64,000 nucleotides of DNA from Planctomycetota bacterium (lineage in GTDB: Bacteria > Planctomycetota > UBA1135 > UBA2386), in the NCBI GenBank assembly GCA_016794035.1, contig JAEUHS010000119.1, positions 1 through 64,000 of the forward strand, read 5' to 3'. The position numbers and the translations under genes were made by a program. Each line of letters begins with the position of its first letter. Positions within the stretch are counted from its first letter, which is position 1. Under the pieces are notes generated by a model. That model was not told the origin of the DNA, ran no database searches, and was given only the letters and a program-made list of their open reading frames with translations. This document shows, in pieces, positions 11,856 through 17,357 of the stretch.

Positions 11856-13235
11856 ATGTCCATGTCGATGCGTTCCACCCTCGTTGCCGTGCTCGCCGGA
11901 TGCGCGCTCGGCCCGCTCGCGGCCCAGTCGGGCATCCGTTGGACACCGTCGTTCGACGAGGCCCTGGCCGCGGCGAAGGCGCAGAACAAGGTCGTGATGC
12001 TGGCCTTCAACATGGCCGGCGAGCGCGCCAACGACGAACTGGTCGAGGACCACTACCAGGATCCGACGCTGGCGCGGCTGTCGGCGAACACGTTGAACGT
12101 GTTCTGCTCGACCGCGACCGAGGCGCGCGTGCGCGGCGTCACCGTGGCGCAGCAGCAGGCCGCCGAGCAGCAGGCGCGCCTGCAGGTGCTGAAGATCGGC
12201 CCCGGCGAGGACGTGATCGCGCCGCAGCACGTGTTCCTCGGTCCCGACGGCACCGTGCTCAGTTCGGTCGCCTACCGCATCACCAAGGGCGAACTCGAGT
12301 GGGTGCTGCTCGACGCGATCAGGAAGGTCGACCCGACGTTCACCTGGCAGCTGAGCCCGGGCGCGCGCGCGCCGGCGCGGCTCGACTTCGGCAAGGTCGA
12401 ACGCGGGCAGAACACGGCGCCGCCGAGCAAGGCCCAGGTCGCCGAGGCGCTGAAGGAGCTGAAGAAGTCGCGCGGCGGCATGCTGCGCAACCTCGAATCG
12501 GTGCAGCTGGTGATGCGCAGCGACGAGCCCGAGGCGATCGCCTTCATCGACACGACGCTGAAGGGCCTGCAGGGGCCGATGCTGAAGCCGGGTCTCGACA
12601 CGATCGGCCTGATCTCGCCGCCGGCCTACCACGCGGTGGTCGCCGGCCACCTCGACGACCGCGACGAGGACGTGCGCTACGCCGCCGCCGGCGCGCTCGA
12701 ACATCTCGCCGCGCCGAAGGCGCTGCCGGCGCTGACCAAGCAGTGGAAGGCGGAGAAGGTCGACCGCGTGCGCGGCCGGCTGCTGCGCGCGATGGCGAGT
12801 TCGGCGCCGACCAGCAAGGAGGTGCTCGCGCAGATCGACAAGGTGCTCGACAAGGAGCCTTCGGCCGACGTGCGCGCGCACGCCGTGCTGGCGCTGGCGT
12901 TGATCGAGGACAAGGCGAAGGTGCACGACGGGCTGACCAGGGCGATGCGCGACAAGTCGGCGAAGGTGCGCGCGACGGTGGCGTTCGCGCTGGCCCAGCG
13001 CCGCGACGTCGAGTTCGCGCACGCGCTCGACGAGGCGGCGGTGCACGAGGAGGACGCCGAGACCAAGGCCTGGCTCGAAGCCGCGGCCGCGGTCGTGCGC
13101 GGCGGCGACGGCAAGGCGTTCGCGACGTTCCTCGAGCGCGTGCTCGGCGAGAAGCCGGTGCAGGCGGGCCTGCAGGGACTCGGCGGCGCCGGCGCCGGCG
13201 GCGGGGGCGGCGGCGGGCGTCGCGGCGGCGGCTGA
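11856..13235 (+). CDS. Secreted thioredoxin-fold protein with HEAT repeats and Gly-rich tail
   Basis: A 459-residue protein with a signal peptide (MRSTLVAVLAGCALGPLAAQ). Residues about 25-150 resemble the thioredoxin-like domain of DUF255-type proteins: SFDEALAAAKAQNKVVMLAF and later PQHVFLGPDGTVLS. The CxxC redox motif is absent (AFNMAGERAND at that position), so redox activity is unlikely. Residues about 260-440 carry HEAT repeats (VRYAAAGALEHLAAPKALPA and similar). The tail is Gly/Arg-rich. ATGs at 11856, 11862 and 11868 are all in frame; a TACCGT hexamer at 11849-11854 would favour a start at 11862 or 11868 on a leaderless message. Function unknown. Confidence 0.8.
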   Translation: MSMSMRSTLVAVLAGCALGPLAAQSGIRWTPSFDEALAAAKAQNKVVMLAFNMAGERANDELVEDHYQDPTLARLSANTLNVFCSTATEARVRGVTVAQQQAAEQQARLQVLKIGPGEDVIAPQHVFLGPDGTVLSSVAYRITKGELEWVLLDAIRKVDPTFTWQLSPGARAPARLDFGKVERGQNTAPPSKAQVAEALKELKKSRGGMLRNLESVQLVMRSDEPEAIAFIDTTLKGLQGPMLKPGLDTIGLISPPAYHAVVAGHLDDRDEDVRYAAAGALEHLAAPKALPALTKQWKAEKVDRVRGRLLRAMASSAPTSKEVLAQIDKVLDKEPSADVRAHAVLALALIEDKAKVHDGLTRAMRDKSAKVRATVAFALAQRRDVEFAHALDEAAVHEEDAETKAWLEAAAAVVRGGDGKAFATFLERVLGEKPVQAGLQGLGGAGAGGGGGGGRRGGG

Positions 13236-16332: not shown

Positions 16333-16412
16333 GCGCCGCCGGCCGTGCGACTCGGGGGAGCGCACGCCGCGTCCCGGCGGGGTAGCATGGGCGCTGCTCG
16401 ACCGGAGGCCCC

Positions 16413-17357
16413 ATGTTCCACACTCGTCGCTTCGTGCCCGTCCTGGCCGCCGTGCTCTCGGGTGCGGTCGTGGCCCAGGATCGCGTGGCCGTTCCACCGG
16501 CTGCAGGTGCTGCCGAACTCGCCAGGGCAGCGGCCCGTGCGCAGGTGCACAACAAGCGCGTGCTCGCCGTGCTCTGCGCTGCAGGCGCGGACTTCGCCGA
16601 GGTGCTGAAGAAGGACCCCACGTTGTCGCGCAAGCTGCTGTACGAGTTCGAGACCGTGCAGTTCGTCGGTGAGCAGGCCGACGCGCAGGCGCTGACGTGG
16701 CAGTTCGCCGAGGCGGTACGGGAGAAGCCGGCCCTCGTCGTGCTCGGCGCCGATGGCAAGGTGCTCGCGCGGCTGCCGCGAGCGGCGTGCACGACCGGCA
16801 CCGGTCCGGATGCGGCGCGGCTGCTGCCGCTGCTCGAGCCGCACTTCTGCCCGCCGGTCGACGCCGACGAGAAGCTGGCCGCGGCCCTGGCGACGGCCAA
16901 GAAGACCGGGCGCAACGTCTTCATCCGTTTCGACGCGCCCTGGTGAGGCTGGTGCAAGGTGCTCGAGGAGTTCCTCGGGCGAGACGTGACCGCGCCGATC
17001 TACCACAAGGGCTGGGTGGACGTCATGGTCGACGTCGACCGTGACTCCCACGGCAAGGCGCTGAACGAACGGCTCAAGGGCACGCGTCCGGGGGGTCTGC
17101 CGTGGATGGTGATCCTCGACGCCGACGGCAAGGAGATCGTCAGTTCGAACGAGAACGGCAGCGGCGGCAACATCGGCGGCCCACGGTCCGAGGCGGAGTG
17201 TGCCTGGTTCGTCGAGATGCTGCGAAGGAGCAGCGGCGAGCGCGTCAGCGAAGCCGAACTCGCCACGCTCGCCGCCGACCTCGAGGCCTACGCGGGCCCC
17301 GAGCGCAGGCCGCGACCGGTCGCGCCGCCGGCCAGGAAGCCTCGTCGCGGCGGCTAG
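16413..17357 (+). CDS. Probable selenoprotein: secreted double thioredoxin-fold protein with UxxC motif
   Basis: Read through one in-frame UGA (16944-16946), this frame gives 314 residues. Residues 1-22 are a signal peptide ending VVAQ. Residues about 30-145 are a degenerate thioredoxin-like domain without CxxC. Residues about 150-275 are a second one: NVFIRFDAPW, then UGA at codon 178, then GWCKVLEEFLG, and later GGLPWMVILDADGKE with the cis-Pro loop. Thioredoxin folds normally read APWCGWCK here, so the UGA sits exactly where the nucleophilic Cys belongs, and Cys181 is the resolving residue. Reading frame, codon use and homology continue unbroken past the UGA to TAG 17355-17357. A strong hairpin follows the UGA at the distance expected for a bacterial SECIS. 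GGAGG lies 4 nt before the ATG. The alternative is a TGC-to-TGA nonsense mutation; the location at the catalytic Cys argues against it. Confidence 0.8.
16944..16980 (+). promoter_or_regulatory. UGA codon plus bSECIS-like hairpin
   Basis: After the UGA (16944-16946), bases 16961-16968 (GCTCGAGG) pair with 16973-16980 (CCTCGGGC): eight pairs including one G-U, with apical loop AGTT. The loop begins 22 nt after the UGA and has G at its second position followed by U. Both features match the general rules for bacterial SECIS elements, which SelB binds to insert selenocysteine. The hairpin lies inside the coding sequence, as bacterial SECIS elements do. Confidence 0.65.

Follow-up and report, generated by a model that had tools for sequence, protein, structure and literature searches.

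A candidate family of exported tandem thioredoxin-fold selenoproteins in Planctomycetota, with a UGWC motif and its own SECIS hairpin

Introduction

When a TGA interrupts a thioredoxin-like reading frame exactly at its first active-site cysteine, is the gene broken or does the codon specify selenocysteine (Sec)? The question is raised by a locus in the window, by which we mean the whole 64,000-nucleotide stretch analysed here (contig JAEUHS010000119.1 of assembly GCA_016794035.1, from a member of the Planctomycetota). Selenoproteins with a thioredoxin fold and a UxxC motif are a known kind, and an original prediction, made from the letters of the window, placed the locus among them. The selenoproteome of the Planctomycetota is little studied: we found one paper, on Porphyra-associated Planctomycetes (PMC4807772).

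The analyses below lead us to conclude, with a probability of roughly 95%, that the product of the gene is an exported tandem thioredoxin-fold selenoprotein in which UGA178 is decoded as Sec, and which probably takes part in thiol:disulfide exchange. Sec decoding is strongly supported computationally: by conservation of the codon, by a SECIS hairpin and by the presence of the machinery.

Results

A reading frame interrupted at the active site

Features of the locus are listed in Table 1. Its single in-frame stop is a TGA, with VFIRFDAPW before it and GWCKVLEEFLGR after it in the translation, and it stands in place of the first Cys of CGWC (FDAPW-U-GWCKVLEEF); coordinates and description were thus correct as first given. 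The N-terminal 21–22 residues (MFHTRRFVPVLAAVLSGAVVA, followed by QD) resemble a secretory signal peptide. When the UGA is read through, the Pfam Thioredoxin_7 domain spans it (residues 154–237, 40.8 bits, cut-off 27), and the claim that frame and homology run on to a normal stop holds: besides the domain match across the codon there are a likely cis-Pro and a terminal TAG.

Table 1. Coordinates of features at the locus, as positions of the window
Feature	Position	Strand	Details	Basis
Predicted selenoprotein ORF	16413..17357	+	314 aa with TGA as Sec; stop TAG	translation, Pfam
TGA, predicted selenocysteine codon 178	16944..16946	+		sequence, translation, homologue alignment
UGWC redox motif, U178-G-W-C181	16944..16955	+		translation, homologue alignment
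Shine-Dalgarno GGAGG	16404..16408	+	4 nt ahead of ATG	read from sequence
Probable secretory signal peptide	16413..16478	+	about residues 1–22	inspection; relatives' N termini similar
Degenerate thioredoxin-like domain 1	16503..16847	+	about residues 31–145	AlphaFold2 secondary structure; relatives' CGWC/UGWC
Thioredoxin_7 domain 2, probably redox-active	16860..17228	+	about residues 150–272	PF13899, AlphaFold2, fold likeness
bSECIS hairpin	16961..16980	+	GCUCGAGG-AGUU-CCUCGGGC; 22 nt from UGA to loop	
Pro230, likely cis-Pro of thioredoxin fold	17100..17102	+	GGLPW	column invariant in two alignments

An AlphaFold2 model (mean pLDDT 78.6) shows two tandem thioredoxin-like domains. The first has lost its CxxC, in line with the inactive first domain originally proposed; relatives often have CGWC at this place and one, L041, has UGWC. 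In this last gene (L041:1582-2337) each of the tandem domains has a UGA at its active site, giving UGWC twice.

Could a UGA in such a motif arise by chance? The loose pattern TGG-TGA-NNN-TGG-TGY occurs four times in the host genome, with a thioredoxin-like frame only at the present locus, and inspection of 59 other loci with this pattern, from the host and other planctomycete genomes, found none that is thioredoxin-like. A phylum-wide scan with the pattern, at up to 25 sites per genome, had seemed rich in UxWC motifs; apart from the locus in the window, the loci inspected proved to be frame noise. On codon usage alone, three other TGA codons lying between coding-like frames of the window outscored codon 178: none of the three has a thioredoxin-type motif, and two of them (47418 and 25072) look like ordinary gene ends. 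The occurrence of the UGA in a thioredoxin motif frame is not chance.

As to gene context, six neighbors in the window were checked and none recurs next to the homologues; nor is the downstream tRNA-Val conserved. Elsewhere in the window (11865-13232, forward strand) lies a predicted exported protein with HEAT repeats identified by Pfam; by eye its N-terminal stretch reads as thioredoxin-like without CxxC, where Pfam gives no match.

Selenocysteine machinery in the host genome

The host assembly (4.83 Mb in 133 contigs, 94% complete, 3.15% contamination) contains selA, selB, selC and selD, the four genes that the original prediction proposed to look for. The tRNA-Sec scores 74 bits (cut-off 47), and ARAGORN likewise calls it, giving the anticodon as UCA; SelB scores 321 bits (cut-off 242), SelA 473 bits (cut-off 268) and SelD 360 bits (cut-off 125). 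selA and selD adjoin on one contig, and the machinery and the window gene sit on different contigs of this fragmented assembly. The SelD gene (L018:1501-2418, reverse strand) holds an in-frame UGA of its own (SGSGUAAK) and is itself a predicted selenoprotein, the known UxxK form of SelD. A search with RF00031 gave no match in the host genome, nor in any control genome, so that its negative outcome carries no information.

Bacterial codes in which UGA is a sense codon exist, and the UGA might accordingly have been reassigned throughout the genome, to Trp or, by a mutant tRNA, to Cys. We attach next to no weight to such a reassignment, given that other genes of this genome end at TGA, the EF-Tu gene in L002 being an example, and that a canonical tRNA-Sec with anticodon UCA is present together with SelA, SelB and SelD. 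The EF-Tu gene had entered the analysis as a SelB-like match with a TGA, a candidate that was dropped on finding that this TGA is its normal stop. The gene (L002:1501-2670; C44:27219-28388) is unusual in other respects: GHVAHGKTT replaces the usual GHVDHGKTT, and the switch-I stretch is altered.

Among the 41 genomes of the host's class that carry the UGA form, tRNA-Sec is detectable in 39, the exceptions (G153 and G112) being fragmented assemblies; outside the class it was found in nine of ten UGA genomes, the exception being 77% complete and having a congener with tRNA-Sec. Within the class this correlation says little, since tRNA-Sec is present in 138 of the 154 genomes. In four complete genomes from outside the class, none of them with tRNA-Sec, the proteins found are all of the Cys (CGPC) form, and these are distant homologues.

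Conservation of the UGA and alternation with cysteine

A match to the protein is found in 93 of the 154 genomes of the class. In an alignment of domain 2 from 70 non-redundant class members the residue at codon 178 is U (TGA) in 41, Cys in 27, and Gln and Ser in one each: the alternation of Cys and Sec for which the original prediction had proposed to look. Searching 294 genomes of the phylum with a profile added ten UGA genomes outside the class, plus further Cys genomes, so that the same UGA is present in 51 genomes from about ten planctomycete families. Random placement of UGA codons among homologues had been named as grounds for refutation; their positions are not random. What does not survive is the opinion that such a protein would be unusual in this lineage, given that the UGA form occurs in no fewer than 41 class genomes and in ten others of the Planctomycetota. 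The gene is nonetheless patchily distributed: the two other genomes of the genus that were examined (G132 and G133) have no close homologue, though both have tRNA-Sec.

Sequence divergence tells of the state of the gene beyond the UGA. Amino-acid identity to the five closest relatives is 68–79% after the UGA versus 49–58% before it; the corresponding dN values are 0.17–0.26 and 0.33–0.49. After the UGA dN/dS is about 0.20–0.32, an approximate range in that some dS values are near saturation. By these measures the region past the UGA evolves as translated, functional protein under purifying selection.

These data bear on three further explanations. Taken by itself the window shows one UGA in one assembly, as might a pseudogene recently broken by a nonsense mutation at the active-site Cys codon; this explanation is refuted because the UGA is kept in divergent relatives (for example L027, at 42% identity), and it is further opposed by the spread of the UGA over 51 genomes and some ten families, by purifying selection downstream and by a co-conserved hairpin (below). 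Its probability is negligible. Much the same can be said of a TGC misread as TGA: the assembly is fragmented, which would favor an error of sequencing or assembly, but TGA stands at the same codon in independent assemblies, including the complete Pla163 chromosome (CP036290), and we see virtually no room for such an error.

The third explanation grants the decoding and makes it a selenium-dependent switch, with truncated domain 1 produced when selenium is low, the full-length selenoprotein when it is high, and both functional. Bacterial read-through is incomplete, and domain 1, conserved ahead of the UGA, forms a domain of its own, as a switch would have it. Against this, domain 1 is here without an active site and evolves faster than domain 2, and the UGA falls inside the domain 2 fold, so that a truncated protein would be left with an unfolded stub at its end. 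We consider a switch very improbable.

A SECIS hairpin directly downstream

Bacterial SECIS elements (bSECIS) have been defined by a loop of 3–9 nt with a G in its first two positions, a stem of 4–16 bp, a distance of 16–37 nt from the UGA and an MFE of at most -7.5 (PMC13188914). With the U of the UGA as base 1, a hairpin that agrees with this definition on all four counts begins at base 18: its loop is the 4-nt AGUU, its stem has 8–9 bp, its spacing is 22 nt and its MFE, folded alone, is -14.8 kcal/mol (z = -2.8). The original prediction had not mentioned a SECIS.

The stem shows covariation. All 47 Sec genes compared share the AGUU loop, and pairing holds in 94.3% of their stem cells; four stem pairs show changes on both sides, a number reached in none of 500 shuffles. 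Compensatory examples are provided by Pla163 (GUUCCAGG-AGUU-CCUGGAAC), L072 (GAAG-AGUU-CUUC) and L077/L078 (GAGA-AGUU-UCUC). The set of 47 omits four Sec genes that are without this stem (L041, L060, L076 and L079), in which two to three of the eight stem pairs form. When all 41 Sec genes of the class are counted, 28 have all eight pairs and 36 have at least seven.

In 33 Cys homologues pairing at the stem cells is 46.1%, no better than in slid controls: the hairpin accompanies the UGA forms and not the Cys forms, a further point against genome-wide reassignment. Synonymous recoding leads to the same distinction. Sec genes have a mean MFE of -13.3 kcal/mol where -7.5 is expected, as against -7.1 observed and -5.9 expected for Cys genes; the fold in Sec genes is more stable than the encoded protein demands, which is barely so in Cys genes. 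The protein at the hairpin reads LEEFLGR in Sec forms and LEDWM in most Cys forms. An Rfam scan of the region returned chance matches only, and Rfam has no matching SECIS family.

Origins of the Sec forms

In a tree of 87 domain 2 sequences, 47 Sec members fall within one group of 50 (support 96/94), which also includes one Cys member and two members with other states. L079 branches just outside this group, and L041, L060 and L076 lie among CGWC proteins: the four Sec outliers on the tree coincide with the four genes in which the common stem is missing. The tree requires eight state changes versus 29 in shuffles. With the reservation that columns are few and the outliers mostly long-branched, this suggests separate acquisitions of Sec, and so more than one origin in a single Cys/Sec family. 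The family is a test case for the conversion of Cys to Sec and, through the difference between LEEFLGR and LEDWM, for the constraint that a hairpin places on protein.

Relatives with two predicted selenocysteines

In 19 non-redundant relatives the frame extends farther upstream and adds a TlpA-like domain, which likewise has a UGA in its active site, the motif being mostly VVLDFWGTW-U-GPC. The domain 2 UGA is kept in 17 of the 19. In Rohdeia mirabilis Pla163 (CP036290; L056:2440-3783) read-through gives 448 aa, with AhpC-TSA/Redoxin and Thioredoxin_7 matches across both UGAs; carriers of the fusion also include L028, L029, L030, L032, L034, L035, L039, L045, L072 and L180–L182. From their translations the fused relatives are predicted to hold, in one protein, two Sec in two different thioredoxin-fold domains. 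L080 and L083 keep the upstream UGPC UGA and have Gln or Ser at the domain 2 active site, possibly through loss of the second redox center. The prediction is testable at the bench, since Pla163, a strain whose genome sequence is complete, has a two-Sec relative.

Discussion

Together the machinery, the alternation of Sec and Cys and the SECIS support the selenoprotein reading with which the analysis began, and add a computationally well-supported selenoprotein family that has its own near-invariant SECIS. In routine gene calling these genes will be cut short at the UGA.

On the computational evidence tRNA-Sec and SelB decode UGA178 under the direction of the hairpin directly downstream in the coding sequence. 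The mature protein, to judge from its signal peptide, probably goes to the cell envelope. There the Sec178 selenolate would attack a substrate disulfide, and Cys181 would resolve the mixed selenenylsulfide to leave a U178–C181 bond; this reading follows from the fold, from the UxxC motif and from homologues with Cys at that position. Degenerate domain 1 probably has a structural or substrate-docking role. The signal peptide, the UxxC motif and the invariant Pro at the cis-Pro position together make exported thiol:disulfide exchange, with a U178–C181 selenenylsulfide, the most likely activity. The protein is thus most likely an exported thiol:disulfide oxidoreductase: its redox role is read from fold and motif, and it may act as a reductase or as an isomerase. 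More tentatively, the class might maintain in its envelope a thiol-disulfide relay based on selenium, made up of exported tandem UGWC proteins that in many species are fused to a TlpA-like UGPC domain, one polypeptide then having two Sec centers that may exchange electrons; we regard this as possible, though on balance doubtful.

How does the protein relate to known families? Best among solved structures by profile is the Xylella disulphide isomerase 3fk8 (E=1.1e-12), which is also alike in fold, and the C-terminal (gamma) domain of DsbD (2fwe/2fwh) has a fold like that of domain 2. Both have Cys rather than Sec, and DsbD-gamma is part of a membrane protein whereas the window protein is predicted to be a free exported tandem. 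No NCBIfam model reaches its cut-off on the window protein. The best resemblance among these models is to TsoB (NF045694, rhodanese/DsbD fusion-like), over its DsbD-like C-terminal domain, at 27.1 bits against a cut-off of 805; TsoB differs in architecture and in its Sec motif, UxxxxU. For the UxxC selenoprotein of the Thioredoxin family (PF00085) the scores also lie below the cut-offs (18.6 versus 23.5 bits in Pfam, 15.4 versus 96.8 in NCBIfam). Prx-like/TlpA-type selenoproteins (PF00578, UxxC) are like the N-terminal UGPC domain of the fused relatives, as in Pla163, a domain absent from the window protein.

In the prokaryotic selenoprotein inventories of 2022 and 2026 Thioredoxin_7 appears only in the Trx7/PDZ protein, with CxxU (PMC9312934, PMC13188914). 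That family (NF041199), the sole listed one to share the Thioredoxin_7 domain, has Sec at the second position and a PDZ domain; the window protein has UxxC and no PDZ match, and reaches 10.2 bits where the cut-off is 300. Among UxxC entries the PF13098 thiol:disulfide interchange protein comes nearest; it corresponds to GOS Trx-like 2 (cd02953, DsbD-gamma; PMC2398784). The two share the thioredoxin fold, a UxxC motif with Sec as the N-terminal nucleophile and a relationship to DsbD-gamma, and the window protein misses PF13098 only marginally (26.9 bits, cut-off 27); what distinguishes it from Trx-like 2 is its tandem arrangement, its degenerate first domain and the AGUU SECIS, a separation drawn from profile scores and description. 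Earlier metagenome surveys may have placed individual reads under Trx-like 2. The Thioredoxin_7 (PF13899) UGWC proteins are best seen as a new family within the known UxxC thioredoxin-fold kind, apparently unlisted in both inventories.
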